Part shown: piece after piece, positions 4,869-51,100 of the stretch
Layout of the letters: each line of letters opens with the position of its first letter
Position numbering within the stretch: position 1 is the first letter of the stretch
IMG/VR virus record: IMGVR_UViG_3300032282_002104
Span: 1 to 62,860 of that record
Origin: a virus
DNA: 62,860 bases
Strand: one strand, 5' to 3'
Translations under genes and position numbers: made by a program
Notes under the pieces: model-generated
The model's input: only the letters and a program-made list of their open reading frames with translations
Told to the model about the DNA's origin: nothing
Database searches by the model: none

Positions 4869-5441
4869 TTAGTTATTTATGATGGTTTGGAATTTAGCCA
4901 AATCCAAATGTTCTAAATTTTCTTGCTGTTTTAATTTATTAGGTATCAACGCATTTTCTGGTATAACTCTATGATATCTTACTTTTGGATGATGTTTTAT
5001 AACTGTTAGGGTCTGATCTACCCAGTTTCCGTAATAAGTCTCTGCATCTGAACTCTTTTTGTAATGTGCAGTATCCGCATACATATTATTAAATTTACTG
5101 CTTACTCCAGAGTAATCAAATCCTAAAATGTAAATAGTTTTAATATTGCTTATGGCTGATGCATAGCTTAGTGCAATGGGCCCTGAACTGTATCCATAAT
5201 TTAAAGTAATTTTTTTAGCCCCAGATTCTGGAAGCGGTTTACGGGTGTAAAATTCGTTAATTTTAGCATAACCAGATTTTTGTATTTCCTGGCTAATTCC
5301 ATCGTCTGTAGCAATCAAAACATCAGGAGCAAAATCTCTGTATAAAGCATTACACCCGTAAACTCTGCCCAGAGTTTTCAGTTTGTCTAAATCTATGCCT
5401 TTTCGGCTGGTTCCATTTCCGAGTACGAATGCTATAGCCAT
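4869..5441 (-). CDS. Conserved phage protein with nucleotide-sugar-transferase-like Rossmann start (190 aa)
   Basis: The N-terminus FVLGNGTSRKGIDLDKL followed by VYGCNALYRDFAPDVLIATDD has the glycine-rich beta-turn-alpha and 'CN ... D' pattern of MptE-like/DUF115 and sialyltransferase-like proteins. A second strand motif, IKTIYILGFDYSG, lies near residue 105. I recall similar proteins in marine T4-like phages but cannot search. The role is open; modification of a surface glycan or of virion proteins would be a guess. The gene lies directly behind a hairpin that contains both a terminator U-tract and its likely ribosome site, suggesting stage-dependent expression. Confidence 0.55.
   Translation of the reverse strand: MAIAFVLGNGTSRKGIDLDKLKTLGRVYGCNALYRDFAPDVLIATDDGISQEIQKSGYAKINEFYTRKPLPESGAKKITLNYGYSSGPIALSYASAISNIKTIYILGFDYSGVSSKFNNMYADTAHYKKSSDAETYYGNWVDQTLTVIKHHPKVRYHRVIPENALIPNKLKQQENLEHLDLAKFQTIINN
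4874..4881 (-). promoter_or_regulatory. Late promoter box CATAAATA, 6 nt from the ATG
   Basis: A minus-strand late box ending 6 nt before the start codon at 4867. With T4-like geometry, transcription would begin at or next to the AUG. The box overlaps the 3' end of the preceding gene. Confidence 0.5.
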
Positions 5442-5471
5442 AAAAAATCCCTGAGTATTTACCCAGGGATT
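5442..5471 (-). terminator. Hairpin with U-tract overlapping the ribosome site of the downstream gene
   Basis: On the minus strand AATCCCTG pairs with CAGGGATT around a 10-nt loop, followed by a T6 tract that ends exactly at the ATG of 4869-5441. The 3' arm holds the only Shine-Dalgarno-like sequence (AGGGA). The loop contains GGTAAATA, a late-box variant. It looks like an intrinsic terminator that also sequesters the ribosome site. Confidence 0.7.
5456..5463 (-). promoter_or_regulatory. Candidate late box GGTAAATA inside the hairpin loop
   Basis: Minus-strand GGTAAATA, 14 nt before the ATG at 5441. A transcript starting about six bases downstream would lack the 5' arm of the hairpin and so expose the ribosome site. 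Weak match to the box; the position is what is notable. Confidence 0.35.
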
Positions 5472-5492
5472 CTTGTTAGCACCTAAAACTGA

Positions 5493-6128
5493 TTAGGCAG
5501 CGTCTACTCGTACAAAGGCTGTAGTACCAGCAGCTTTATCTGTAGCATAATCATTATTTGTTGTTGCAGCAGCTAACCAATAACGAAACTTGTCTGCGGG
5601 TGTTGAAAAATCATACACCCATTTGTTGGTAATGCGACTTGCATAAAATGTTGAAGCGTCTTGTTTAGTTACAAGAATACTCATTTCATTTGCACCCAAT
5701 GAACCAGATGCTTTATTTGCTAGTGTACAAACGCCAACTAGTGTAACTGTGCCTGATCCTGCACCAGCGGCTTTGGCTACAAAAATACCACCAACTTGTG
5801 CGTTGGATTTTGATGCGCCAACGGCCACCCAGTCGGTTGTGCCTACAGTTAAAATTCTATAAATGCTACCAACGACCATATCCTCGTCATTAATAGCTGT
5901 ACCGCTAGTAACTAGGAATTTCTTTGCACCTTTCTGAGCTAAAATTGAACCAGCAGCGGCTGCTTGTGCTCCAATTTTAACATATGGTCTAATAGTGTTA
6001 CCCGTCTGACTTGTCATACCGCCAGTACCACCAACATTATTACTGCTTATTAAGGTTGGAGACACAAATTTGTCGCGCACCTGTGCGTCTGTAGTAGGGG
6101 TATGTGTAATTTTTAATTTGTTTGCCAT
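5493..6128 (-). CDS. Predicted virion protein (211 aa), function unknown
   Basis: Starts MANKLKITHTPTTDAQ with a strong AAGGAG ribosome site. The middle carries a Gly/Val-rich stretch GSIYRILTVGTTDWVAVGAS and AKAAGAGSGTVTL, a pattern I recall in structural proteins of marine phages. There are no Cys clusters, membrane segments or catalytic motifs. Its transcript would have an unusually long leader (70 nt) from a CATAAATA late box, containing a perfect 12-bp palindrome, and the gene is followed by a strong hairpin. This separate transcription unit with its own promoter, leader and terminator fits an abundant late protein, perhaps a decoration or fibre component. That is inference. Confidence 0.6.
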   Translation of the reverse strand: MANKLKITHTPTTDAQVRDKFVSPTLISSNNVGGTGGMTSQTGNTIRPYVKIGAQAAAAGSILAQKGAKKFLVTSGTAINDEDMVVGSIYRILTVGTTDWVAVGASKSNAQVGGIFVAKAAGAGSGTVTLVGVCTLANKASGSLGANEMSILVTKQDASTFYASRITNKWVYDFSTPADKFRYWLAAATTNNDYATDKAAGTTAFVRVDAA

Positions 6129-6181
6129 TTATTTTCTCCTTGTGATTAGCGTTCTAGGCTACTCGAAGTGGTGCTCCGAGA

Positions 6182-6193
6182 GTTCAGCTGAAC
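6182..6193. promoter_or_regulatory. Perfect palindrome GTTCAGCTGAAC in a late leader
   Basis: A 12-bp perfect palindrome lying 6 nt downstream of the CATAAATA box, in the untranslated leader of the 5493-6128 gene. It could be an operator or a short hairpin; nothing else identifies it. Confidence 0.4.
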
Positions 6194-6197
6194 ATTA

Positions 6198-6497
6198 TTA
6201 TTTATGAGATTTTTGTAATAATGATAGTAGCAGATGTTCCTGCATTATTGTGATTACACTATTGGCTTCTGTAATCTTTTCTGTATAAAGTCTCTTGCTG
6301 CTTACAGACCCAGTCCTGGTATAATTACGACGATGCTCGCTAGCATATTTAAGGATGTTGTCTACCGCCTTGAGTAATGTATCGAATTCTCTGTAATCCT
6401 TATACATATGATTCATCTGTGCTGTTTTTAACTTGTAGCGTAAGTCGTACCAGTCTTCTATTTCTGCTATCTGAATAGTTGTGATGTCTGCATCCAT
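6198..6497 (-). CDS. Hypothetical small protein (99 aa)
   Basis: The frame can be extended to a TTG at 6515, but the ATG at 6497 is preferred because a TGTAAATA late-like box ends 5 nt upstream of it and nothing resembles a ribosome site for the TTG. The product (MDADITTIQIAEIEDWYDL...) is mostly helical and charged, with Tyr-rich segments (HMYKDYREFDTLLKAVDNIL) and a C-terminal helix ending LLLSLLQKSHK. No family is recognised. It is divergent from the endolysin; the two genes' promoters overlap at 6497-6510. Confidence 0.55.
   Translation of the reverse strand: MDADITTIQIAEIEDWYDLRYKLKTAQMNHMYKDYREFDTLLKAVDNILKYASEHRRNYTRTGSVSSKRLYTEKITEANSVITIMQEHLLLSLLQKSHK
6199..6206 (-). promoter_or_regulatory. 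Late promoter box CATAAATA
   Basis: A minus-strand late box, 70 nt upstream of the ATG at 6128, overlapping the 3' end of the 6198-6497 gene. Confidence 0.5.
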
Positions 6498-6526: not shown

Positions 6527-7147
6527 ATGGAATTTGATTTTGATTTCACACAAGAAAAACTAGCAGCCTGTTTACCCCGTAACAAGGATCCCGAAGGCTG
6601 GTTCAACATTATGTATGAAACTCTACAAAAATACGATATTAGCACCAGAGAAAGAGTAGCTGCTTTCATAGCACAAGCCGGACATGAAAGTGCTGAGTTT
6701 ACAATTTTAAAAGAAAACTTAAACTATACTGCTGAATCACTTCACAGAGTTTGGCCAAGCCGTTTTCCTACATTAGAAGCAGCACAACCTTATCACAAAA
6801 ATCCAGAAAAGATTGCTAACAAAGTTTACTCAGCTCGTATGGGCAATGGCGATGAACATTCTGGTGACGGTTGGAAGTTCCGTGGCCGCGGTGCTATTCA
6901 GTTAACAGGTCACGATAACTATAAGGCATTTGCTGCATCAGTAGGTATGAGCATTGATGAGGCAGTAGCTTACTGCGAAACTAATCAGGGTGCTTTAGAA
7001 AGTGCTTGCTGGTTCTGGCAAAAAAATAACCTGAATCAGTTTGCTGATACTGGTGATATGACTACGTTAACTAAACGCATTAACGGTGGTACATTAGGTT
7101 TAGAAGATCGCACTAAGCATTACAAACATGCCATGGAAGTTCTATAA
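6527..7147 (+). CDS. GH19 (chitinase-like) endolysin
   Basis: A peptidoglycan hydrolase of glycoside hydrolase family 19, expected to cleave the glycan backbone of the host wall at lysis. The catalytic acid lies in FIAQAGHESAEF (Glu54). The family block KFRGRGAIQLTGHDNY is at about 117-132, and SACWFWQKNNLNQFAD and RINGG follow toward the C-terminus. The length of 206 residues fits a single-domain phage endolysin. There is no signal peptide or membrane anchor, so export would need a holin, which I did not find here. An AAGGAG ribosome site and an exact TATAAATA late promoter fit late expression. A second GH19 protein lies at 10508-11365. Confidence 0.92.
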   Translation: MEFDFDFTQEKLAACLPRNKDPEGWFNIMYETLQKYDISTRERVAAFIAQAGHESAEFTILKENLNYTAESLHRVWPSRFPTLEAAQPYHKNPEKIANKVYSARMGNGDEHSGDGWKFRGRGAIQLTGHDNYKAFAASVGMSIDEAVAYCETNQGALESACWFWQKNNLNQFADTGDMTTLTKRINGGTLGLEDRTKHYKHAMEVL

Positions 7148-8399: not shown

Positions 8400-8969
8400 T
8401 TAATTTCCGTAAATTAGATTAGGATGAGAATCGAACCATTGTTTTACTACATCGTATTCAGCACCAAAATGCATATTAAAAACTAATCTAAGTTCATTAT
8501 TTCGTACTCCATGAGGATTCTTTGTTGATAATAGCCAAGGTTGGTCAGTTATGCTAGGATAAGTAAACTCCTGATTTAAATATTTGACGTAAGTTTCAGC
8601 ATTGGTTGTATTAATAGGATAATTTAATGCTGTAGGATAGTGGTTAAAATCTGTATGTTCTGCTGCATTGCTATTAAGTACACTAATTAGCCAGGTTGGA
8701 TTAAGATCTGACATATCAGCTAACATTTTAGGTAACCAGGTTAAATGTTTTTCCAACAATTTACTGTGGACCATGAACCAATTTTCACTTATATGATGAT
8801 GTATAACGCTGCCATGGTTACCTAAATCATAAAATGTAGCGTTGCCATAGGGTCTAATTTCACTATGATGTGTTTTTGATTTTTCTATGATAGTGTTTAC
8901 CATAGTCACAACTTTTGACCAATCCTGGATAATTTTTAAATCCACAGGACTAACAGGGTTCTGATACAT
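8400..8969 (-). CDS. 2OG-Fe(II) oxygenase-like protein (189 aa)
   Basis: The arrangement EHTDFNHYPTALNYPINTT (His105, Asp107) and later NPHGVRNNELRLVFNMHF (His153, Arg156/Arg161) matches the HxD...H...R metal and 2-oxoglutarate site of the double-stranded beta-helix dioxygenases. It resembles aspartyl/asparaginyl-hydroxylase-like phage proteins in size and spacing. Substrate not predictable. Its ATG overlaps the stop of the desaturase (TAATG), and the next gene starts one base after its own stop, so the three are translationally coupled. An oxygen-dependent iron enzyme beside a di-iron desaturase suggests a shared lipid or surface modification, but that is inference. Confidence 0.6.
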   Translation of the reverse strand: MYQNPVSPVDLKIIQDWSKVVTMVNTIIEKSKTHHSEIRPYGNATFYDLGNHGSVIHHHISENWFMVHSKLLEKHLTWLPKMLADMSDLNPTWLISVLNSNAAEHTDFNHYPTALNYPINTTNAETYVKYLNQEFTYPSITDQPWLLSTKNPHGVRNNELRLVFNMHFGAEYDVVKQWFDSHPNLIYGN

Positions 8970-9820
8970 TATTTTTTAAACAGTAATTTAAAATGTGACC
9001 AGTAAGGATTGTTTGTTATATGCATGCCACCTTTGATTACTCTATCTGGATGCATGTTAGGTTTTAATTTGGGTAACTGAGTCCAGTGCAAGCTAGGAGT
9101 ATTATGATGTTCCTGGTGATAACCGGCGCCAAATCCTATAATGTTATACCAGCAACTATAAATTCCTATGCTATCCTGAGTTGTGTCACCTCTGCGATCT
9201 AATACTGTCCAGTGTTCTCCATAGCTGGTCGCATTGTTTAAAAAATGAGACATGAAATATACTAATGCCATGTAAATTCCATATCTAAAATCTAATACAA
9301 ATATACTTAAAAGATATAAATTAAAAGCCCATTGTTCACAAATGATTTTAGTTTTATTAACAGGTTTAGAATAATTAGGTATTTTTAACATACCAACAAA
9401 ACTATCCAGAGTTATTCTAATACAATAACTCCAAAAGTTTTCTATCTCTCCGTTTTTGCCATGTAAAAAAACTGACATAGGATCTTTAGTTGCACCGTCT
9501 ACAGGTTTGTCGTTTACATATATGTGATGTTTTAAATGACAGTATTTCCAAGCCTGATGTGGTATACTACCAATCATACTTAACCATATTTCATATATGA
9601 TGTTTGTAGTTTTGTTATTAAAAGTAGGCCAATGACTGTGATGGTGTAAAGGGCCGTTTAATAAATTTGTAATTAGCCAACCATGTACAGGTAAAAATAT
9701 TGCTAATATCCAAAAATTAATACCGAACCCTATTAGTAAAAATGGCAAACCAGCCATTAAAATGGTATAAAGTATTAGATATAAATCTTTCCAATTATAT
9801 TTGAATAAAGGCTTAGTCAT
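8969..9820 (-). CDS. Membrane fatty-acid desaturase (283 aa)
   Basis: An integral-membrane di-iron desaturase. The three histidine boxes are all present: HHHSH at 59-63, HLKHH at 95-99 and HQEHH at 235-239. Hydrophobic segments lie at about 12-55 and 165-195, giving the usual two membrane hairpins with the active site on the cytosolic side. Residues such as GPLHHHSHW and YHQEHHNTPSLHW fit acyl-lipid or acyl-CoA desaturase-type proteins. The ATG at 9820 is preferred over a TTG at 9850, because the TTG has no ribosome site. An AATAAATA late box ends 5 nt before the ATG. This is an auxiliary metabolic gene that could alter host membrane fluidity during infection; the substrate and position of the double bond are unknown. 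Confidence 0.88.
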   Translation of the reverse strand: MTKPLFKYNWKDLYLILYTILMAGLPFLLIGFGINFWILAIFLPVHGWLITNLLNGPLHHHSHWPTFNNKTTNIIYEIWLSMIGSIPHQAWKYCHLKHHIYVNDKPVDGATKDPMSVFLHGKNGEIENFWSYCIRITLDSFVGMLKIPNYSKPVNKTKIICEQWAFNLYLLSIFVLDFRYGIYMALVYFMSHFLNNATSYGEHWTVLDRRGDTTQDSIGIYSCWYNIIGFGAGYHQEHHNTPSLHWTQLPKLKPNMHPDRVIKGGMHITNNPYWSHFKLLFKK

Positions 9821-10490: not shown

Positions 10491-10509
10491 AGCCCCGCAA
10501 GGGGCTTTT
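10491..10509 (+). terminator. Intrinsic terminator AGCCCC-GCAA-GGGGCTTTT
   Basis: A GC-rich stem with a GCAA loop followed by T4, just after the 10258-10485 stop. It may also act weakly on the convergent gene ending at 10508. Confidence 0.8.
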
Positions 10510-11365
10510 AAGTGAGCCTTAGGGCTTTCATGTTTTTAGCCGTAGTATCAGGATGTATGTCACCAGTTAAACTAGAACTGTATCTAGGATCATTTTTCTG
10601 ACTTGCGTTGGCTATGACGCCAACAGCTTCTTCTGGTGTTTGTACTTTAGCTAGTTGTGTTTGGCGGTGTTTTAACCCTGCCATATTAGGATTAATTCCT
10701 TTGGTTACTTGTTTTACTGTAGCCTTTTCAAAATCTTTAACTTTAGGTGCTACTCTGTTTTTCCAGAACCATTCTGCTACTTTAGCTGCAATTTCTGGTT
10801 GTGCTGCCAAATCTGGATTGTTCGCTAAATCTACGCCTATGGCCCTGCCTACTCTGGTATAATTATCCCGTCCAGTTAACTGTATGTAACCTCTGCCTTT
10901 AAATCGTTCACCATCACCTTTAACTTTATTGCCTAATATCTTAGCTTTGTTTTTGTTTTTTTCGTAACGATTTTTAAAATATTCTGGTGTTCCTCGTTCT
11001 ATCATACTAGTAAAGTTACGAGTTTCATGAGACATTTGTGATATAAAATGTTGTAATTCTGCACCTGACATACCAGCGTTAGTAGCGTGTTGAACCAGAT
11101 AAGTTTTTAATTCTTCAGGAGTACTTGGAGTGCGTACTTGTTGTGTTGGTTGTTGCACCTGAGGTTGGGCTTGTGATTGGGCTTGTGGTTGAACTTTTTG
11201 TATGCTTTGTGTAGGTTGTACGCCAGGAGTTATATCATAAGAAATATCTTTGTTCTTAGAACCAAATCCTCCCATAGCTAGACCACCTGCAACACCTAAT
11301 GCAGCTAGACCACTTTTCCAACCTTCGTCTAGGTCAGCTTCTGTAATAAATTCTGAAGCTCTCAT
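10508..11365 (-). CDS. GH19-domain protein with capsid-targeting-like N-terminus (285 aa)
   Basis: Residues 1-9 read MRASEFITE, closely resembling the T4 internal-protein propeptide MKTYQEFIAE that targets proteins into the prohead and is cut by gp21 after Glu. The predicted cut here is E9|A10. A Gly/Ala segment (18-35) and a Gln/Pro linker (45-80) follow, then a GH19 domain with SQMSHETRNF (Glu114) and RFKGRGYIQLTGRDNY (about 154-169). I infer a virion-packaged peptidoglycan hydrolase, distinct from the lysis enzyme at 6527. The start has no ribosome site of its own; the ATG overlaps the stop of a 17-codon cistron (ATGA), so translation is coupled. Confidence 0.75.
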   Translation of the reverse strand: MRASEFITEADLDEGWKSGLAALGVAGGLAMGGFGSKNKDISYDITPGVQPTQSIQKVQPQAQSQAQPQVQQPTQQVRTPSTPEELKTYLVQHATNAGMSGAELQHFISQMSHETRNFTSMIERGTPEYFKNRYEKNKNKAKILGNKVKGDGERFKGRGYIQLTGRDNYTRVGRAIGVDLANNPDLAAQPEIAAKVAEWFWKNRVAPKVKDFEKATVKQVTKGINPNMAGLKHRQTQLAKVQTPEEAVGVIANASQKNDPRYSSSLTGDIHPDTTAKNMKALRLT

Positions 11366-17429: not shown

Positions 17430-19562
17430 TCAAACTTTTAGTTTGGTCCAGATGTCTAATATATCATTACCCTGTGGTTTTGGTGCAGCAACGGTTTCTG
17501 GCTTTGCTTCTGCCACTTTAGGCTGTGCTATATGTTCTGGCATGCTTAAGAAACGTTCAAACACTTCTAAATCTTTAGCATATGATTCAGATATTTTTCT
17601 CTTTTTAATCATTTGTTTTTTCATTTCTTCTCTGATTCCCTTATCAGCAGCCCGCTTAATGGCAAGTTTATCTGAAGCAGTTTGTTGGAAAGCTGGTTTA
17701 GCTTTGGCTGCATCTGCTGCGGCTTTAATAGCGGCATCAGTATTTGCTGTTGCTTGATTAGCTTGTGCAGTTGTTTGCATTTGCTGTATAGCTTGTTGTT
17801 GTTGGGCTTGTGCTGCTTGACGAGTTGCTTGTGTTTGCTGTCTTACCTGATTTAAATCAGCTTCAGTACCTTGTGGTTGTTGAGCGGCTGGTGGTTGCTG
17901 TTGCGCTGTTGTTGGTGCAGGTTCGTCATCGGCATCGTCTGCTACAGGCAATTTTAAAAGTTCATCTTTAACAGCTTGTTGATTTTGCGGAGTCATTTTA
18001 TCAAATTCTGCTTTTAAATCATAAACAGTCTTTTGTTCAGCAGGTGTTGCTGCCTGAGCAGGTTGTGCTGCAGGTGTTGCTGCCTGAGCAGGTTGTGCTG
18101 CAGGTGTTGCTGCCTGAGCAGGTTGTGCTGCAGGTGTTGCTGCTTGTGCTGCCTGATCAGATGTAGTTGCTGTTGCAGCAGTTGCAGGTTTTGCAGTTAC
18201 AGCAGTAGGTTTTACGGGCGTTGTGCCAGATGCTTTAGCTGCATCTGTGCTACCTGAACCAATTACCTTTTCACCACCACGCATGATTGCAGGGCTAGGA
18301 CTAGTTGTAGCTGGTGCTGCGGCTGGTGCAGGTATTGCTGGTAATGCAGCAGATGGTATACCTACTTTTTCAGTAGCTTGTTTTATAACTTCAGGATTTA
18401 TTTTAAAATCTGTTTGTAAGAGTTGCATAATTTTATTGCTATCAGTAGGGCTACCTGCATTTTTCCAGGCAGTCATAAGTTTGTCAGCAGTAACTTTGGT
18501 TGTTAAATTTTTACCTACAGTAGCAAGTTTATTAGCAGCGGCACCTGCTGCCCCTTTTACTTTGTCCCACATACCGGCTTCTGTCACTATGGTAGTAAAC
18601 AGAAGTTTTACACCAGATTCAGTTAGATGTATACCACCTTTAGGTTTACCTAGACTTTCATTTAAAGCCCAGGCCATTATGGTTGTATCACGGTCAATAT
18701 GCTCTCTGGTTAATTGAACCTGACCGACCATAACAGCTTTATCAATTAGAGCCTCTGGACCAAGCGGAAGTCGGCCGCTTAGACCAAGTTGGTCTACAGC
18801 AGATTGTGCTGCATATCTTAAGCTCATAGAATCAGTTTTGCCTGAAGCAATAGTATCCCGAACTGCTTTTAGTGCAGTCTGATAAACTTCTTCCCTAGGT
18901 GTTAATGAATCCAAAGGAATGTTGTTGGGTAAACCTGATGCCATTTTAGCATCAATAGGATTTGGTTGTCCTTTAACTAAATCACCTAGCTTACTTGCAC
19001 CATAAGCCATTGCACCTGTAGCTGCACCTTTACCTACGGCTGTACTAAACTTTTCACCTTGTAATAGTTTGTCTACCATTTTAAACAAACCTAATGCTAC
19101 TGCCCCACCTGCACCTGCACCAGTAATACCAGCAGCAGCAATCAGAGCAGAATAAATTAAACTTTGTGCTATGGGATGAGCTTTAGCAAAATCACGATAC
19201 TTTTGTACATACTTCATTACACCATCATCACCGCCTGTGGCTTGTTTAAGTTTTTCAGCAGCCTGATCATATAATGCATCTACATTTTTAACTGGACCTG
19301 AATTTTGTACTTTACTAACTAAATCGTCATAGGCTTTTTTTACTGCACCAGCAGCATCCATGCCTTTGCCTAGTAGGGTGCGATTGCTACCACTGGCTGT
19401 TCCAGTTGTTTCTATTTCTTGAAATAATTTTTGAATCTGATCAGCAGTAAGTTGTGCTTCTGCTAATTTACGACCAGCACTTTCCCAGAGCTGGACACTT
19501 TTAATTTCGGATTTGTTTAACCCTTCGTACAAGTAAAATGTTTTAAATTCGTTAATGAGCAT
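17430..19562 (-). CDS. Candidate internal head protein (710 aa) with capsid-targeting-like N-terminus
   Basis: The start MLINEFKTFYLYE|G ends in an L-x-E site followed by Gly, compatible with gp21 cleavage at residue 13. Residues about 130-200 form a Gly/Ala-rich hydrophobic stretch (SLIYSALIAAAGITGAGAGGAVALGLF), which could insert in membranes. The region 385-620 is a low-complexity Ala/Gln/Pro/Thr segment with tandem AATPAAQPAQ repeats. The C-terminus is helical and charged. No enzyme motif is seen. Lying between portal and tape measure genes, next to a second protein with the same type of N-terminus, it may be injected with the DNA. That role is inferred. Confidence 0.55.
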   Translation of the reverse strand: MLINEFKTFYLYEGLNKSEIKSVQLWESAGRKLAEAQLTADQIQKLFQEIETTGTASGSNRTLLGKGMDAAGAVKKAYDDLVSKVQNSGPVKNVDALYDQAAEKLKQATGGDDGVMKYVQKYRDFAKAHPIAQSLIYSALIAAAGITGAGAGGAVALGLFKMVDKLLQGEKFSTAVGKGAATGAMAYGASKLGDLVKGQPNPIDAKMASGLPNNIPLDSLTPREEVYQTALKAVRDTIASGKTDSMSLRYAAQSAVDQLGLSGRLPLGPEALIDKAVMVGQVQLTREHIDRDTTIMAWALNESLGKPKGGIHLTESGVKLLFTTIVTEAGMWDKVKGAAGAAANKLATVGKNLTTKVTADKLMTAWKNAGSPTDSNKIMQLLQTDFKINPEVIKQATEKVGIPSAALPAIPAPAAAPATTSPSPAIMRGGEKVIGSGSTDAAKASGTTPVKPTAVTAKPATAATATTSDQAAQAATPAAQPAQAATPAAQPAQAATPAAQPAQAATPAEQKTVYDLKAEFDKMTPQNQQAVKDELLKLPVADDADDEPAPTTAQQQPPAAQQPQGTEADLNQVRQQTQATRQAAQAQQQQAIQQMQTTAQANQATANTDAAIKAAADAAKAKPAFQQTASDKLAIKRAADKGIREEMKKQMIKKRKISESYAKDLEVFERFLSMPEHIAQPKVAEAKPETVAAPKPQGNDILDIWTKLKV
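18041..18144. repeat. 30-bp tandem repeat, about 3.5 exact copies
   Basis: Exact 30-bp units start at 18041, 18071, 18101 and 18131 (the last is partial). They encode the 10-residue unit AATPAAQPAQ of the internal-protein candidate. DNA-level identity indicates recent expansion. Confidence 0.95.
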
Positions 19563-27573: not shown

Positions 27574-28404
27574 TTATTCGTGGTCGTAACTACCTTCGTT
27601 TTGACGAGTATAACTTGGGTTATAGTTATTCATTTGTAGGATATCATCACGAATATTTTGGTTACGTTTTTCAATGTTTAGTACACGAGTAAAACTATTA
27701 GTAATTACAGCCGTATAGTAAGCGAATGGGTTAGCACTCTTGCTTTCATCAAATTGTAATCCAATCTGACTCAACTGTAGCAGGGCTTGACTACGCATTT
27801 CTTCGTTGTAGGTATAGCCTCTCCAGTTACTGCGAGTAGCATAACGCTCACATAACTTCATAAACATATGAGCTAATTTATTAGTCATAGCACCATGATC
27901 CTTGCTGAATTTACCAGACTTCATAGGACCAATCCAATGGCTTTTGCCAACTAACATGGGTTCGCCTTCAGCATTAATTCTGTAGTGATGGAATGGTGGG
28001 AAGTTTACTTTCAGATACTTAATTGGTGCAATTTCTTCGTCGTATTCTGTAACAATTTGTTCGTCTGGTTCAACTTCTACTTTCTTGAGCTCTTCCTGAG
28101 GGATATGTTCCCAGGTCATGATTCTGAACACAATGTCTGTATCTTCGATATCTTTGGGTTTCATTTTGAATTGATCTAACTTAACTGTAGGATCAGTAGC
28201 ATGAGCTAAATCGTATGCTGCTCTGGCTAACCTGTCAGCTCTGTTTTCACGAGCTTGTTTAATATTTTTCTTATTGATTTGGTCTACACTTTTAAGTATG
28301 ATGTCATAGTCCGAATCACTAGGAGTTTTAAAACTACAGTATGTTTTCTTGCTTTTGTGTATCTCTGATAAGATGTCGCGATTGTTAAGGTAATTCGTAC
28401 GCAT
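27574..28404 (-). CDS. gp55: Late-transcription sigma factor gp55
   Basis: Minimal sigma factor that with the phage clamp directs host RNA polymerase to TATAAATA promoters. The region SNWRGYTYNEEMRSQALLQLSQIGLQFDESKSANPFAYYTAVITNSFTRVLNIEKRNQNIRDD (about 190-255) corresponds to sigma region 2, with the NPFAY block that I recall in gp55 of marine T4-like phages. An N-terminal extension makes it longer (276) than T4 gp55 (185). Gene order 47-46 next to 55 also fits T4. AGGA ribosome site; sigma70-like promoter upstream. The many late boxes in this window are its presumed targets. Confidence 0.85.
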   Translation of the reverse strand: MRTNYLNNRDILSEIHKSKKTYCSFKTPSDSDYDIILKSVDQINKKNIKQARENRADRLARAAYDLAHATDPTVKLDQFKMKPKDIEDTDIVFRIMTWEHIPQEELKKVEVEPDEQIVTEYDEEIAPIKYLKVNFPPFHHYRINAEGEPMLVGKSHWIGPMKSGKFSKDHGAMTNKLAHMFMKLCERYATRSNWRGYTYNEEMRSQALLQLSQIGLQFDESKSANPFAYYTAVITNSFTRVLNIEKRNQNIRDDILQMNNYNPSYTRQNEGSYDHE

Positions 28405-39175: not shown

Positions 39176-42100
39176 ATGGCAACTAGAACAATAACATTTT
39201 TACCACAGGTATTTCAAACTGATACTAATCGTAAATTTTTAAATGCTACATTAGATCAATTAGTTACTAACCCAAAATTTAAAAAGATAAACGGATTTAT
39301 CGGTAGAAAAACAAGTCCTGCTTTTAAAAGCACTGACAACTATTTGCCTGAGCCAACAACTCGTAAACAAAACTATCAGCTTGAACCTAGTGTTGTCGTA
39401 GATTCTTCTAGTGAATATTTTGTAGCAAACTTTGCTGATATTTTAGATAGTATTAACTATCACGGCGGTAATATCACCAATCAGGACAGAGTGTTTACTG
39501 ACGATAATTACACCTATGCTGGATTGTTTGATTACGACAAATTTATTAACTATAACCAATATTATTGGTTACCTAATGGACCAGACAGTGTAGATGTAAC
39601 TGCCGCAGCCATAAGCACCTCAGACAATCTTAGCGTTAGTCGTAATATAACTGACCAGGCTTATAACATAAGCGATTATTTTGAACAAAACCCAGTACTA
39701 ATTTTAGCTCGTGGTGGTACATATACCTTCCAAGTTAATCAGTCTGGATTTCCTTTCTATATTCAGGCACAACCAGGCACAAGTGGTGGTTATACCTGGC
39801 AACCAAGCATTAGTACCAGAGAAGTTTATGGTGTAGAAAATAATGGTACAGATGTAGGAACTGTTACATTTAATGTTCCATACATTACAGCTCAGAACTG
39901 GCAAATGGAATTGCCAAATTATACTAATGTTGATTATGCTACAGATTTTACATTAGCTGATATAGCTAACAAGCCATTAAGTTATGTTCAGAAAAAATTA
40001 GGCGGTATTGATGGTGTAACTGACATCGCTAATAAGACTCTGGTATTTGTACACGGAAATACTTCTGATGCAGCCTGGCAAGAGCCTGGTATCTATGAAG
40101 ATTATACTGAAAATTACGATGGTGGATTGGGATACGATCCTGGCGCATTAATTACTGGCAACAATAGATCAGGTATTTTTAGAATTACTGTTGACTCAAA
40201 CTATGCTGTACCTATTGTTAAAATTAAACAAGTAGATGTAGTAACTGATGAATACAAAATTAAAATATTAACTGGTAACAAGTATGCTTACAGAGAATTC
40301 TACAAGGGTACAGATACTAACTACCTAGAAATATTACCACCATTAACTGCCCCATTAGATACCCTATTTTATCAGGATGGTAGCAATTCATCCATGGTTG
40401 GTACTATTAAACTTGTAGATGTCCAAAGTAATACTCCTATTGATGTAGAATTAGATATCTTAGGTAAAAAGACTTATACGAGTGTTAATAATGTAGTGTT
40501 TACCAACGGATTGAAGGTTCGTTTTGACAGTACAGTAAAGCCAGTACAATATCAAAACAACGAATATTATGTTGAAGGGGTCGGTGATGCCATCCGTTTA
40601 GCAAAAGTATTAGAGCTAGTTACTATAGAAGATTATATTGTTCCAGTAGTAACCTCCTGGGACAACTTGGGTTGGGATACTGAAGGTTGGGAAGCTACCA
40701 TAGGCGGACCTACCCAATTAGATTATCTAACTATTAATCGTGCTAGTATAGATCAGAATGCTTGGAGCCGAAGCAATCGTTGGTTCCATACCGATGTTAT
40801 TAGCGCAACTGCAACTTACAACAATAGTACAGTGATTCTGGATCAAACTGCCAGAGCAAAACGTCCTATTATTGAATTTAACTACGATCTGCAATTATTT
40901 AATAATGGTAGAGTAGCCAAAGCCAGTGTTAGCATATTAGATACCGAAATTACTGATGCGTTTAGCCTTATTGAAGGTACAACATCTTACTTTGCTGATG
41001 GTGTGCAGATGCAAGATGGTGATAGAGTTATTTTTGCTGGAGACACTGATCCAGATGTTAGAAATAAAATTTATGTTGCAAACATAGTAGATCCTTCAGG
41101 AGATGGTAGCAGTATTGAACATCTTACTTTAACAGAAGATGGCGAAGTTTCTGAATATGAAACTGTTATAGTTTACTATGGCGACACCAACAGTGGAAAA
41201 ACATTCTGGTACGACGGTTCTGTTTGGCAAGAAAGCCAACAAAAAACTACCATTAACCAAACTCCATTGTTTGACATATTTGATGACGCTGGTGTTTCAT
41301 ATTCTGACTCAAGCAAATACCCAGATTCAACATTTGCTGGAACTAAACTATTCAGTTACAAAGTTGGTACAGGTACCAGAGACCCATATTTAGATTTTGC
41401 ATTTACATATAAAAATTTACAAAACATTGGTGATATTACTTTTGAAAATAACTTTGATTTAGACAGTTTTGAATACACTCTAGACTCAGAAACCATAAAC
41501 TATAAGATTAATAATGGAACACTCAATAGTATAAATTCATTGACCTCTGTTACGTCAGTTACTTGTTGGATTAAATCCAAAGAAGATAGCAAGCAATATC
41601 AGTTACGCCAATACCTTGTAACTGATGCTACTCAAATAGATTACTATTTAGGCTATTCTGGTGAACCTAACCTAGAAGTAAACAACTTATTAATTTACAA
41701 AAATAGTACCGCATTAACAAGCACAGAGTACAGTATTGTAAGAACCAAGGGTAAAACTTATGCAAGGATTAATGTTGCATTAGCAGTTAATGACAGAATA
41801 GACATTAAGATTTACAGCAAGTTTGTCCTTAAAGATTACTATTATCAGGTTCCTGAGAATTTAGAAATTAACCCTGCTAACGAACAGTTTACTGTTTTAA
41901 CTCTAGGCCAACTTCGCCAACATGTAAGAGATGTATACGAAAAAAGCAAAGAAACCTATGGAATATATCCAGGCGCAAGTAATCTTCGTGACACTCCATT
42001 AATTAAAGATGTAGGCGGCAATATCCTACAACATGCTGGTAGCATGATTAGTGCGGGTCTATTCTTATGCCATCCTGAAATTAATTTTATATCTGCGTTG

Positions 42101-45100
42101 GATTTAGCAGCCAGAGAATACCAAAAGTTTAAAAATAAAATTGTAGATAGAGCAATAACACTTCCTGAAATAAATTACACAGATATTCCAGGCAGTCTGG
42201 ATGCTATTCTTTCTGACATAAACTTAGTTAAGAACGCAGATTTCCCCTGGTACTATTCTGATATGTTAGCATATGGCATAGAAAACTTAGTGGCCTCTCA
42301 GGAAATTATAATTGAAGATGATGCCAGAGCCATTTATAACTTGGAAACTATTTTTAGTTTAGATACACTAACACGTCAGAGTGTTCTAATTTATTTGAAT
42401 GGTGAGCAATTAACATACGGGCAAGATTATACTTTCCTGACTACTCGTCCAGCGTTTAGTTTAACAGACACAGTACTCAGAAGCGTAGATGATGTTTTAT
42501 TAATTAAAGAATATTCTACTACTAACGGTAGTTGGATACCAGAGACACCAACCAAGTTGGGTATGTATCCTGCTTTCAAACCAGTTAAGTATTTGGATGA
42601 AACATTTGTAGACCCAATTTATGTTATCCAAGGCCATGATGGTAGTATTACTCCTACATTTGGTGATTTTAGAGATGATATCCTTTTGGAATTTGAAAAG
42701 CGTGTCTACAATAATATCAAGGCCAAGTTTAGCCTAGACAAGGTGAGCATTTTTGATGTTCGTCCTGGTAAGTTCAGAGATAATAATTACACCTTAGCAG
42801 AATATAACAACATCATTGGTAAGAGTTTTGGTAAGTGGGCTGGTAGCCATCAGGTTAACTATTCAGAAACAACTGGGTACAGCTCAAACAATAGTTACAC
42901 CTGGAATTACAAGAGTATGTCTAATAAACTGGACGATACTTTATTACAAGGTAGTTGGAGAGCTATATTTGAACACCACTACGACACTACTCGTCCGCAT
43001 ACACACCCCTGGGAGATGCTAGGATTTAGCGATCAACCAGATTGGTGGGAAATGAGATATGGTCCAGCACCATATACTTCTGGTAACTTAGTATTATGGG
43101 AAGACCTTAAAGCTGGTAGCATATTTTCTGGTCCTAGAGCTGGTGTAGATTTGAGGTTTGCTCGTCCTAGCTTACTTGACATTATTCCTACAGATGATTA
43201 TGGTCAATTAAGACAGCCAGTGCAAATATTTGTTAAGAATTTTGATTCTAAGAAAACAAAAATTAGTTATGCCATTGGTGAAGTTGGTCCTGCCGAAGCA
43301 GCATGGCGCAGATCTTCCGAATATCCATTTGCATTAGCTAAAGCTATGGCTATAACTAAACCAGCTAAGTTTTTTGGTCACTTCTTAGACAACTTCAATT
43401 ATGTCTACGATAAAGATATTGAAGAATTTACTTACGCAGGACTAAAACGTAGAATTCAGATTACTGATTTGAAAGTAAATGATGCTGATACTCAGTTCAT
43501 TAGTTTAACTAACTATGTCAGAGACTTTCTAGCTGATTCTGGAATTACCCCATTAACTAAACTTACTCATGTTTACGATACATTGGGTGTTAAATTAAGT
43601 TACAATGTAAGCGGATTTACTGGTCTTGATTATATTAAGATTTTAGCAGAACAAGCCAGTCCTAATACAACAACTAACAGCGTATTAATACCAGACGATA
43701 ACTTAAATCTACATGTTAAAAAATCAGTACCTCAGAGCAAAGTTACCTATAGTGCTGTAATTGTTGCGCGGTTAGGTACAGGATATAAAGTTCACGGATA
43801 CAATTTAACAGACCCATATTTTACAATTATCCCTAGTACTGCAAATAATAATAAAACTGTTATTAATGTATTAGGTACAACTGCTACCATATATAACGAT
43901 TACGATGCAGTCAGAGTAACCATACCATACGGCACCGAGTTCGTTAACAGACAACAAGTAGTAGATTTCTTAGTAGGTTATCAGAGACATCTGTTAAGCC
44001 AGGGCATCTTGTTTGACGAGATTGATTCTGATTTAGGTCTAAGCAGAAACTTTGTATTAAGCGCTCATGAATTTATACTTTGGTCCAAACAAAACTGGAA
44101 CACCAATACAGTTATTGTTCTAAATCCACTAAGCAGCAGAATTAGAATTAAGTCTGATTATAAAGTAGTGGACACTATTAATAGTGGTAAGTTAGGGTCA
44201 GGTAAAGTATTAGATCCAAACTTTAACTATCTTAGAAATAATCAGTTGAGTGTAGTTAGAATAGGTAACGATTTCGTAGTTAATGCCATTAACGATCAAA
44301 GCATGGCCTTAGTAGAAATGAACCTGGTAGAATACGACCATTGTTTAGTATTTGACAATGCAACCATATTCAATGACACTATATATGAGCCAAGCACCGG
44401 AAATCGTCAGCAACGACTTAAGATGGTTGGTCACAAAACATTAGATTTTGACGGAAGTCTATATGCACCTGGATTCGTATATAATAGTGAAAATGTAGAT
44501 ACCTGGATGCCAGGCAAAGACTATAAAAAGTTTACTATTATTGAATTTAAAGATGCTTATTATGTAGCATCAGAAGATATTCCTGGTACTGATATATTTG
44601 ACTACAACAAGTGGCAACTAAGTACCAACCAAACTATAAAGTCTGGATTACTTCCAAACTTTAGTACCCTCGCAAGTAATTTACAAACTACTTACAATAC
44701 TTCAGATATCAATTTAGAGTCTGATTCAGATATCTACAGCAAGGGATTACTTGGTTTCCGTAAGCGTAATTATTTTGAAGATTTAGGTCTGGACGATACT
44801 AGTCAGGTTAAATTTTATCAGGGCTTTATCAAAGAAAAAGGTACGATAAAAAGCGTACAGGCTTTACTGGGTGCAGAATTTGATAAATTTACCACTGACA
44901 TTGACTTATACGAAAGCTGGGCACTCAGAGTAGGCGAATATGGTGCTACAGATATTAATCAGGTAATTGAAGTATTTGTTCCTGAAAAGCCCTTTGCTGC
45001 CAACCCAACTTATGCAGAATTTTTAAATGATGGTGATACTGAGCCAAACTTAAACTATTGGTTCAAACCAACCAGTACTGCTGAACACAAAATAAAATTA

Positions 45101-48100
45101 TTACCAAACAACTATGACAAGAACATATTCTTAACTACCAAGAATCTACTTAGATTAGAAAAAGAAATTAAAACTGCTGGCTACTTAAAAACAACCGACA
45201 TAGATGGTACTATTTTTGATATTGAAGCTATTGCCCTGGCAGATAAAGAAACATTCATTAACAGTATTGGCTCAGGATTTAAACTCTGGGTAGCTAAAAA
45301 AGCTAACAATGACTGGGATGTTTACAGAGCATCACAGAACAAGGCTGTAATTACCAAAGTTACAAATGCACTAGAGGGTTATGTTGAATTTACCACAGAC
45401 ATTCCACACGGATTAACTCTGGGAGATTTCGTTGTAGTTAAGAATGTCAGTACCAACTTTAACTATATCTACAAAGTTTATAATGTAAACAGCCTAACAA
45501 GTTTCTTAGTAAGCATTGACACTGGATTAATTGATCTAACAGGCTTTGAAAGCCAGGACGCTACTGGTGTATTGTTTAACTTACACACAGTAAGATTTAG
45601 CACTATTGCAGATTGGGCTGAATATACTCCTGCAGAAGGTTGGACTACTGACGACATAGTAGCTATTGATCAATGGGGTACAGATTATGTAGACTGGGCT
45701 GTTTGGAAAAAGACCGATAACTATCTACTTAATGATGGCATTACTAGACCAAGTGCTACATCAACTGAAAAGTTTGGTGAAAGTGTTGCATTTTTAGATA
45801 ATGGACAAGTATTATTGGCTGGGTTAAGTGATAGTGGAACCGGCAAAGTAGTTAGTTACTTAAACAAATCAGATAACAGTTCAATACTAGCTGATGTTAG
45901 TACTAACACAGATTTTTATGAATACAATGAGTCAGAAACTGTTACAGCAACTAACCTAGACAATTTTGGTAAAGTAATTAGTGCAAGTAATAATGCATGG
46001 TTTGCTGTGGGTGCTCCTGAATCTAATACGAGCAGTGGTTATGTATTCACATATAAGCGTACAAACACCATAGCAGACGGAAGTTCAGTTAGATTAGAAG
46101 TACAACAAGCATTTACTAGCGGTGTATTAGCAGCATCATTTGGTGCAGCATTATCTATTAGTTCGGACGCAAAATGGTTGTATGTTGGCCAACCTAACAG
46201 CATCTCTGGGGCAGTTTATGCTTATAGATTAGTTACCGGTGGAACAGCAGCAACTGGTACTTTAATTGGTGATGGATCAACATCAATTAAGGCTTGCCCT
46301 GTAAGTTTCAATAGTGCTTATCAGTTACAAATAACTGACACCACTGGTAAACTATATGTTTACTTAAAAGATTACACCATAAGCAGCACAAATATTGTGT
46401 TTACATCAGCACCAGCTGATGGGTTAGTTATTACAGTAAATGCATTATCAGAATATTATGTGTATAATGATACTATAAGTGATTTTGTATCATTTTCTGG
46501 TTTTGGTACATCGGTAAGCACTACCACAGATGGTGCTCAGGTAGTTATTGGTGCTCCAAGTTATGATTCAACTGCTACAAATAATGGTATCGTATATGTG
46601 TATGATAGAAGTATCAATGCTGAATTAGCTGATAGCAGCACATTAACATTCCAAGTATTACAGGGGTACACTGATTCAATAAATCCAAGAGTTACTGTAG
46701 ACGGCACAGAAGTTACTGTTAGTAGTTTTAGTACAGTAGCATCAACAAGCACCACAGTAGTATTAGCACAGGCCCCAGCATTAGGTTCAGAAGTTAGAAT
46801 TGAAACTAACAATTTCAGACTATTGAAAACTATTACTCCAGCTGATACTGAAGAAGGACAGGCGTTTGGTACTAGTGTATTAATTTGCCCAGCTAACTGT
46901 ACCATTTATGCCAGCGCACCAAATCAAGATAATGCGTTGGTTAGAAACACTGGTAGTGTATATCGCTTTACTAATTTAGGTAGACTGTATGGTGTTGTGA
47001 CTGGTACCGTGACTAGCCCAACAGTAACTGCAGGCCACAGAATACGCATAAATGATTACGAGGTTGAATTTACTGGCACATCATTAACTAGTGTTATTGA
47101 CGATATTAACAACGCTCTTATCCCAGGTATAACTGCAAGTAACAGTAGCAATAAATTAAAAATTACTTGTGACACTGAACTAGTAGCTAATAAACTGAGA
47201 ATTTTACCTGGTAATACTGGTACAGCATTAACTGATTTAGGTCTGGATATTTTCACAAACACACAGACAATTAAGAATCCTAATCCTTACGACAATGCTA
47301 ACTTCGGTAAAACTCTAGCACTTAAGAATACTGCTGATGTATTGTTTATTGGTTCTGATGTTGCTAATACTATAGAAATAACTACATTTGATGATAGTAC
47401 AACTAGCTTTGACCAAACAAGTATTGTGTTCAAAGACGAAATTATACAATCTGGTGCAGTACTAGTTTATGAATATATAGCAGAAAAAGTAGACAATACT
47501 GACCGCCCAGGATTCTTCATATTCAGCCAATACCTAGAACCAGGTAGCATGGCCAGATACGATCAATTTGGTGCAAGTATTGCTGCTTATGGTAATAATG
47601 TTGTTGCTGGGGCACTAGGATCAGATGTGTTTGGTGCCAATTATGGTGCATTATTTGGATTTAGAAATGTTTCAGAACGCAGCTGGGCCACAACTAGCAC
47701 TGCACCAGCTAAAGTTGATATTGACATCATTAATGAAGTAACTATCTACAACTACAGAACAAAGCTAAAAGTTCTTACTCTGGATATATTGGATCCAGCC
47801 AAAGGTAAAATCCTAGGATTAGCTTCACAAAACATTGATTATTCTAGTAGCTTTGATCCAGCAGTTTATGGCACCAGAGAAACAAAAAATCAGCTCTGGG
47901 GATCTACACAAATTGGTAAAATTTGGTGGAACACTAATACTGTCAGATACTTAGATTATGAACAATCAGATCTGGGATATCGTAGTGTAAATTGGGGCAG
48001 AGTATTCCCAGGCAGTAGCATTGATGTTTACGAATGGATTGAAAGCACAGTTCCACCAGTGGATTATATTGCTGCTGGCTACGAAGGAACACCATATAGC

Positions 48101-51100
48101 ACTGATTTAAATAATGCTGTAGTTATTACTAAATTAGATCCTGTTAGTTTAGCCAATTACAACTTGTATTATTTCTGGGTCAAAGGTAAAACAAATATTA
48201 ACCCAGCATCAATTAAAACTTGTAGTGCAGCTACTATTACTGACTTAATTACTGATCCTAAGAATCAGGGCATTGGGTATGCAGTACTTTCAGGTAGTAA
48301 TTCGTTTGGTCTTTACAATGCAAGTAATTACCTAAGCGGTTCAGATTGTGTATTACATATTGATTATGATGTAGTTCCAAATTCTCAGGTCGTACATACA
48401 GAATTTGAATTACTACAAGAGAAAAACCCAGCATCAAAACTACCAGCAAAAATTATGAACAAGGCTATTGATAGCTGGGCTGGTCAGGATGCATACGGTA
48501 ATGCCGTTCCTGATCCAACTCTGGATGAATACAATAACCTAGGTATTAGTGTTAGACCCAGACAGGGTATGTTTAGATTCCCAGATGTTGGGTTGCAAGA
48601 ATTAGTTAGTTACCTAAACAGAACTTTTGCAAGCCTGAATCTTATTGAATACTTTGATATTAGAAAATTTGATATTGGTGAACCACTGCCAAGCAAAGCC
48701 AGAGGCGAGTACAACATTAGTGTTGACAATGACACAGAACTTAGTTACTTGGTCATTTCTGATTACACTGCTGGAGATAAAGTTCTAGTATTAGCAGACT
48801 CAACAAAAGAAGGACGTTGGACTGTTTATACATTAACTGGTGGAAGTTGGGTATTGTCTGATACTCAAAGCTGGAAGTTAGGTCTACAATATGATTTAAT
48901 TGACTTCATAGCAAGTACCTATAACAATACTGCTAAGACTACCTATACAGTAAACACTAAAAACGATATTGAAAAACTAACATTAGAAAATAATGACACA
49001 GTATTCGTTCAGAACAACGGTAACAGCCGTTATGAAATTAGACTTTATACAGTAACTGATACTAGTACTACCTACGAAGTTGTAGTACAGCAAAATGCTA
49101 CAATTAAAATTAAGTCTACTCTTTACACCAACAGAGATAACTTAGCACAAGAGATTCGTAGTTTACTTGGACTAGTTATTGGTGAAGTGTTTACAGCAGG
49201 ACTAAGATCTTACAATAATAATTTAGCTTTTGTAATGATCCGTTACTTGCTCAAAGAACAAAACAATGTAGACTGGTTATTTAAAACTAGCTTTATTGAT
49301 GTTGTACATAGATTCCGTAAGCTAGAACAAAACTCAGTTTATCAGAAAGACAATCAGGACTTCTTACTACAATACTTAGATGAAGCCAAACCATATCATA
49401 CTAAGATTCGTGAGTACCTGTTAAATTATACTGGATTAGATGAGTGGAACGCTGATGTAACTGACTTTGACTTGCCTGCTTACTACGATGCAAATACTCA
49501 GTCCTTCCGTAGTCCAGATGGCACAGAAATAGGTGATGATGCTTTATTATCATCCGCTACACAATACAGCCAATGGTATGCTAATAGAGAATATACCATT
49601 ACAAATGTAATTATTGAAGATGGTGGAACTGGATATGTAACGGCGCCCACAGTTACTATTTCTAATGGTGCTAAAGCATACGCATTAGTTTCCAATGGTA
49701 GTGTTAATGAAATTATTATTACTAGACAAGGAACTGGATTAACTACAACTCCAACCATTACACTAGAAAGTGATACTGGAACTGGCGCTAAAGCATACGC
49801 ACAAATTGGTAATGATTTGTTAAGACACATCAAAACTACCATTAAATTTGACAGAGTTACTTATGATACTGCTGTAAATATCTGGGCACCAAGTACAACT
49901 TATACTCGTGGACAATATGTAGCCTATGATTACAGACTTTACTTTGTAGAACCATTGGACGGAAGCAGTTTAACATTTACTTCTGGAACTACATTTGATA
50001 GTTATAACTTAGTTGAAGTAATTAATCAGAACTTAATAGCTCGTAATACTCCAGCAACTTGGGCACCATATACTAACTATGTAAAAAATGATTATATTAT
50101 TAACGAGGGTCAAACCTATAGAGTAGTTCAGAGTTTCACAAGTGACTTGCAATTTACTATGGGAGATAATCTCGTAGAAACTGCTGACATTACTTTTGAT
50201 GACTTTGGCACTGCCAACGACAGAATTTGGGCATACTATAACCCAACATCAGGTATGCCTGGTAGAGTTCTAGGACAATTACAATCAGGTATTACTTACC
50301 CAGGTGTTATTGTAACCGGTGAGAATTTTAGTAGCCTACCAAACGACTATCCAACCACCATGAATCTAGATGATGACACTATCATTCAAAGTGACTTCAT
50401 TGATACCGAACTAGGAACCAGACCAGAAGATATTATTGTAGATGGTTCAGGATTTGTGGATGAATACAGCAGCCATGCTCCAGAGGAATTAATTCCTGGT
50501 CGTATGTTTGATACTCTTAATATGCAGATCCATACGGCACCACTTTCAGATTACACTTTAACAATTGGTGCTGGTCCAAATACTACTCTGTATCTGTATA
50601 CTGGAGATAATACTACTACCACATTCAGTTTTAAAGTAGCTGGTACATTTGATGATGTATTGTTTGTTCGTACTAAGAATCGTGGACAACAACTTGCAAA
50701 CACTAATTTTACAGTTAATTACGCCACAAGTGAAATTACATTCAATTCTGCGCCAGCACTAAACGACATTGTTTATGTTCTGATACAAAACAATGGCGGT
50801 AACTATTTGTTATACGATAAAACTTACACTGCTGATGGAAGCACTGTTGATTTCAGACTACCAAGTGAATACGCTCTGATTCAAAACGCATTAGTATTTG
50901 TCAATGGAGAAAAAGCTACAAATTACACTGGTGTTAATGTTGCTGGGGCGTATGTGGTACGATTTAACACTCCACCAGCAGAAGACGCATTCATCCATGT
51001 ATATGCATACAATGCTGTAGGAACTGCTAGAGAAATTCATCAAACAGTTAGAACAGTATCTGCTAGCCCAGTTTACCCAGATGATTATACAATAACTTTG

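Follow-up and report, generated by a model that had tools for sequence, protein, structure and literature searches.

A hairpin on the minus strand of a T4-like phage genome probably joins an intrinsic terminator to a gp55-dependent late promoter held in its loop, and usually also sequesters the ribosome site of the gene that follows. The window, meaning the whole stretch of DNA analysed, is a 62,860-base IMG/VR record, and the element was read directly from its minus-strand sequence. Positions 5474 to 5439 read AAGAATCCCTGGGT-AAAT-ACTCAGGGATTTTTT-ATG and lie between the stop codon of the gene at 6128–5493 and the ATG of the gene at 4869–5441. The element is conserved in more than 150 sequences of uncultured T4-like phages. 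A preliminary description of this DNA had proposed a three-in-one switch of terminator, hidden ribosome site and late promoter, and sequence comparison partly supports that proposal as a whole.

Genome Setting

The window phage is T4-like, encoding a major head protein, a portal, a head maturation protease and gp46/47-type nuclease subunits. It also encodes a gp55-type late sigma factor (27574–28404, minus strand; phrog_12791, E 2e-75), which is presumed to read the loop box described below, and gp55 was found in the window and in 10 of 12 records checked. The upstream gene (5493–6128, minus strand; 211 aa) is preceded by a predicted late promoter, CATAAATA (6199–6206, minus strand), identified by its motif and by the leaders of relatives, and its transcript is predicted to end at the hairpin. 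The downstream gene (4869–5441, minus strand) encodes a protein of 190 aa assigned to phrog_30607 by profile match and has no Pfam match. Its AlphaFold model (pLDDT 91) finds its closest matches among GT42 sialyltransferases (9c08, E 1.4e-4; CstII), with which a weak N-terminal profile match agrees, so a glycosyltransferase-like product may be guessed at, weakly, from the model.

Elsewhere in the window there are two different endolysin-like genes, both phrog_181 and ca. 4 kb apart (6527–7147, plus strand, and 10508–11365, minus strand), and upstream of the former stands an exact TATAAATA box. Downstream of a baseplate-wedge-like gene, 4434 codons form one uninterrupted open frame (39176–52480, plus strand).

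Structure of the Hairpin

Folded in context, the hairpin (5474–5443, minus strand) consists of a 14-bp stem with zero mismatches, closed by an AAAU tetraloop (5457–5460). The 5' arm, AAGAATCCCTGGGT, occupies 5461–5474 and the 3' arm, ACTCAGGGATTTTT, occupies 5443–5456, with one G.U pair in the outer and another in the inner stem. The 121 nt around the hairpin fold at −42 kcal/mol, compared with −26.5 ± 3.5 kcal/mol for shuffled sequences (z −4.4), none of 200 shuffles being equally stable, while the isolated hairpin folds at −18.1 kcal/mol. The hairpin itself and the T6 tract (5442–5447) adjoining the ATG of 4869–5441 are as first described, although the stem, given there as 8 bp, is 14 bp by folding. 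A stable GC-rich hairpin followed directly by U6 is the arrangement of an intrinsic terminator, in which the T6 tract, conserved in relatives, would double as the spacer to the ATG. A simple terminator scan of the window did not return the hairpin, perhaps because the outer stem takes five of the six Ts, and no Rfam covariance-model match to it reaches the gathering score.

Two further elements are housed within the same stem-loop. The ribosome site AGGGA (5448–5452, minus strand), a weak Shine-Dalgarno sequence, lies in the 3' arm as had been proposed, and its probability of being unpaired in read-through RNA is close to zero, meaning that the site is paired in the longer transcript. The late-promoter-like box GGTAAATA is present at 5463–5456. 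It was originally placed in the loop, but it extends into the inner stem, the bases G5463, G5462, T5461 and A5456 being paired in RNA. This is immaterial to the proposed function, because a promoter works as DNA.

Conservation Among Relatives

Relatives were collected from IMG/VR both by protein and by DNA pattern. The protein-profile set is the fair sample, because DNA patterns select for T6-ATG, and in all counts the relatives are non-independent samples. Read by eye, all 79 protein-profile loci with enough upstream sequence have a hairpin whose loop bears TANNTA and which is followed by four or more Ts. In the pooled set TANNTA occurs in 155 of 159 upstream regions, 145 of which hold clean hairpins, and a run of at least five Ts follows 143 of these 145. 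Among 240 DNA-pattern matches, 167 encode the same protein as the downstream gene. The upstream late gene, the hairpin and the downstream gene stay together, with the upstream gene homologous in 139 of 139 loci tested.

The stems themselves covary. Both sides change in seven of nine pairs, and 98.2% of stem cells are paired as opposed to 52–62% when slid; double-changed stem cells number 53 against 12.4 ± 4.0 in shuffled sets (0 of 500). Every intact stand-alone relative examined shows this architecture on a different stem with compensatory changes, which is more than chance would give. No hairpin is present in relatives that carry the protein as a domain within a larger open reading frame (most of L006–L034), which ties the element to the stand-alone gene in its gene order rather than to the protein fold. 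A near-DNA search of cultured phages gave no match, and a protein search gave only distant Pelagibacter phage homologs, which lack the synteny.

Hiding of the ribosome site, one part of the original proposal, is common without being universal. A Shine-Dalgarno-like motif lies at −16 to −4 in 136 of the 145 clean-hairpin relatives, yet L278, L280–L284, L285, L286–L297 and L333 keep terminator and box with a 3' arm free of any Shine-Dalgarno sequence, so that sequestration is frequent but not invariant.

The position of the T run bears on termination. It could be supposed that the hairpin is a switch of the T4 gene e type only and the T tract a U-rich spacer that terminates nothing, a reading in keeping with the T run adjoining the ATG in 138 of the 143 hairpins that have one, and with e-type hairpins that lack a T run and stand one gene further on in these phages. 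We hold this to be highly improbable. In L278, L280–L284, L285 and L333, loci whose 3' arm has no Shine-Dalgarno sequence, the T run remains at the hairpin foot though the ATG sits several bases further on, which argues for termination rather than spacing. Moreover, at least five Ts are present in 154 of 159 targets compared with 1 of 51 at the neighbouring gene with an e-type hairpin. The terminator, which the preliminary description regarded as an addition to the switches of T4 genes e, soc and 49, is on this evidence probably real.

The Loop Box and Late Transcription

An ordinary intrinsic terminator of the upstream gene, followed by a gene weakly translated from read-through RNA and without its own promoter here, would account for the hairpin and U6 lying 18 nt past the upstream stop codon in the window (about 15 nt before the stem in relatives) and for the relatives without any Shine-Dalgarno sequence. 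A plain terminator needs no particular loop sequence, however, and TANNTA is present in 103 of 103 distinct target loops, as against about 2/134 to 8/134 of other terminator-like hairpins. Among those eight, five correspond to the element read from the opposite strand, one belongs to the downstream gene itself, missed by the filter, and one, in L255, belongs to another gene of the same design. A plain terminator is accordingly an unlikely explanation. TANNTA as a general terminator-loop motif was likewise rejected, being rare in other terminator-like hairpins.

The sequence TAAATA occurs upstream of 248 other genes where 27 are expected, most often 15–24 nt before the ATG, with counts of 28 against 5.2 in G001, 15 against 3.0 in G002 and 10 against 1.8 in the window. 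This excess upstream of genes marks TAAATA as the core of late promoters in these phages. Of 101 relatives, 100 also have it in the leader region of the upstream gene, and at the next late gene on the same contigs it is kept in 51 of 51. The window box agrees with the phage's own late consensus NNTAAATA at the usual spacing, the distance from loop box to ATG being 14 nt in the window, 15 nt in 112 of 145 clean hairpins and 14–16 nt in 135 of 145.

A late promoter in the hairpin, as first proposed, is thus favoured by a core that is the phages' own late motif, but most relatives carry a one-base variant of it. Exact TAAATA is found in 15 of the 145 clean hairpins and TACATA in 80; the exact consensus is kept in all members of the window clade (L277, L278–L285), whose stems are otherwise different, and in some others, but not across relatives generally. 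The variants in most relatives (TACATA, TAAGTA, TAATTA, TAACTA and TATATA) are all single changes at −9 or −8, and every observed middle pair has at least one A. Across a 150-protein tree, 24 changes of the middle pair are counted, the flanking TA..TA being fixed. These variants show no enrichment upstream of other genes, which leaves promoter strength uncertain in most relatives. TACATA was also rejected as a general late promoter of these phages.

This pattern of variation is also what gives the main rival its force. Under it, a protein of the phage or its host would recognise the loop as RNA (UANNUA, with a closing G-C pair), in a hairpin that represses translation and/or terminates, the loop's likeness to a promoter being incidental or ancestral. 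The freedom of the two middle bases beside fixed flanking U-A and U-A would suit such a motif, as would box variants that mostly are not promoter-like elsewhere and stems whose covariation leaves the loop unchanged, a feature of phage translational operators, that of gene 43 among them (PMC3014915). Yet all middle pairs are TAAATA or one step away from it, the window clade has the exact core on unrelated stems, the spacing from box to ATG is that of ordinary late promoters, and exact TAAATA is found in similarly built hairpins at unrelated genes. An RNA motif is for these reasons unlikely, while deserving to be kept in view. Preferring the late promoter, we read the box in most relatives as a promoter that may be held at reduced strength. 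By analogy with sigma-70 −10 elements, we infer that the flanking A and T may matter most for the box.

Predicted Start of the Late Transcript

T4 late promoters span −13 to −6 (PMC2988020; PMC1524935). Applied to the window box, this geometry predicts the +1 of the late transcript at 5450 (minus strand), the sixth base after the box. The predicted late RNA would then be 5'-GGAUUUUUU-AUG, which lacks the 5' arm and retains only GGA of AGGGA. In addition, folding indicates possible weak pairing between a portion of its U tract and downstream sequence. With GGA alone remaining and this pairing possible, the translation efficiency of the window late mRNA is uncertain.

An independent calibration of the start point comes from the orphan RNA family freshwater-2 (RF02980). 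A divergent member forms the leader of the upstream gene in the window (6126–6192, minus strand), scoring 38.4 bits, below the gathering score of 49.9, and others lie in L044 (2116–2203), L084 (3871–3958) and L171 (3952–4041). The first position of the family model falls on the predicted +1 in L044, L084 and L171 and on +2 in the window. As it begins at the predicted start and precedes the element's upstream gene, freshwater-2 probably forms the 5' leader of a late mRNA in a T4-like phage.

Proposed Mechanism

Polymerase coming from the upstream late promoter would transcribe the hairpin and mostly stop at the U tract, which would form the 3' end of the upstream mRNA. In RNA that reads through, the downstream ribosome site would be paired in the 3' arm and poorly translated. 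The loop promoter would supply the downstream gene with its own mRNA, initiating at about 5450 within the 3' arm, so that the new RNA would have no 5' arm and would begin with the ribosome site, U6 and AUG. The downstream gene would in this way be insulated from its transcribed neighbour and its level set by a separate late promoter, probably weakened in most relatives. The comparison itself establishes the anatomy of the element, its conservation and covariation, the enrichment of the box and the presence of gp55, and from these we infer termination, promoter activity, the start point and the effect on translation. A more elaborate relay can be imagined, in which polymerase, having released the upstream RNA, slides on the DNA and is re-used at the loop promoter, tying downstream initiation to upstream traffic; after termination in vitro, bacterial RNA polymerase is known to slide and reinitiate (PMC6978380; PMC6978322). 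For the present element we consider the relay very unlikely.

If the terminator–promoter reading is right, ca. 35 bases could be enough, in compact phage genomes, to shield a gene of modest expression from an active neighbour. The invariant TAAATA at the neighbouring gene, set against the one-base variants in the terminator loop, also makes the tuning of gp55 promoters testable.

Similar Hairpins at Other Genes

The placing of TAAATA in hairpins extends to other genes. Of the TAAATA boxes upstream of open frames, 34 of 422 lie in stable hairpins, compared with 1 when the flanks are shuffled. Such hairpins with T6 and ATG occur at unrelated genes in L158, L170 and L255, and a tail-connector-like gene has an e-type TAAATA hairpin with no T run.

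Several individual cases were observed alongside. A hairpin of the T4 gene e type is frequent at the next late gene (M.QQIID.G..ANDGTGE.LR.AF); its loop contains GGTAAATAC and its 3' arm AGAGGA, and it lacks a T run (L168, 5530–5575; L238, 6520–6567; L311, 7690–7734; and others). In two different phages the ribosome-site hairpin of a head-tail adaptor gene (phrog_211) encloses TAAATA, at ca. 9680–9715 (minus strand) in L255, where T6-ATG follows, and at 8785–8831 in L370. In the unrelated phages L170, L187, L262, L158 and L200, CTCTAAATA lies in the loop of a CCTCC/GGAGG hairpin before T6-ATG, giving the three-in-one design with an exact box at genes without assigned function. A window relative, L367, has GAGCTCCAGTGTATAAATAAATATACTGGAGGCTTTT-ATG (19441–19480, minus strand) before a gene matching NAD synthetase and homing-endonuclease families, apparently another case of a promoter in a hairpin.

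Comparison With Known Systems

In the open-access literature on phages, no account of an intrinsic terminator containing a late promoter was found. A scan for late-promoter hairpins recovers T4 gene e as positive control; in T4, Aeh1 and HTVC008M it finds none with a T run after the stem, and in syn9 a single doubtful hairpin with a T run and a 20-nt loop.

The T4 gene 43 operator hairpin, located ca. 40 bases upstream of the start codon (PMC3014915), shares a stem, a conserved loop and a nearby ribosome site with the present element, but sits apart from that site, whereas here hairpin and ribosome site coincide. Rho-independent terminators of T4 have a GC stem, a 4-nt loop and poly(U) (PMC2988022), and the window has the corresponding GC stem, tetraloop and U6. 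Unlike in those terminators, the loop is conserved and promoter-like and the next ATG adjoins the U tract. With T4-type late promoters read by gp55 (TATAAATA; NATAAATA in S-PM2; CTAAATA in Aeh1) the window shares the TAAATA core, the spacing to the start and an encoded gp55, while differing in GG at −13/−12 and, in most relatives, in variation at −9/−8.

The closest likeness is to T4 e, soc and 49, I-TevI-III, segB and Aeh1 mobE, in which a ribosome site hidden in a hairpin escapes by means of a late promoter (PMC3014915; PMC2988022). As in e, soc, 49 and I-TevI, the late box lies in the loop or 5' part, the ribosome site in the 3' arm, and the late RNA would be without the 5' arm. In contrast to these, the start would lie deep in the 3' arm, leaving a leader of 9–10 nt, some relatives appear to do without sequestration, the box often departs from TAAATA by one base, and the U tract would make the hairpin a terminator. 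The best reading of the element is thus as a probable variant of the T4 gene e/I-TevI switch to which termination has been added.
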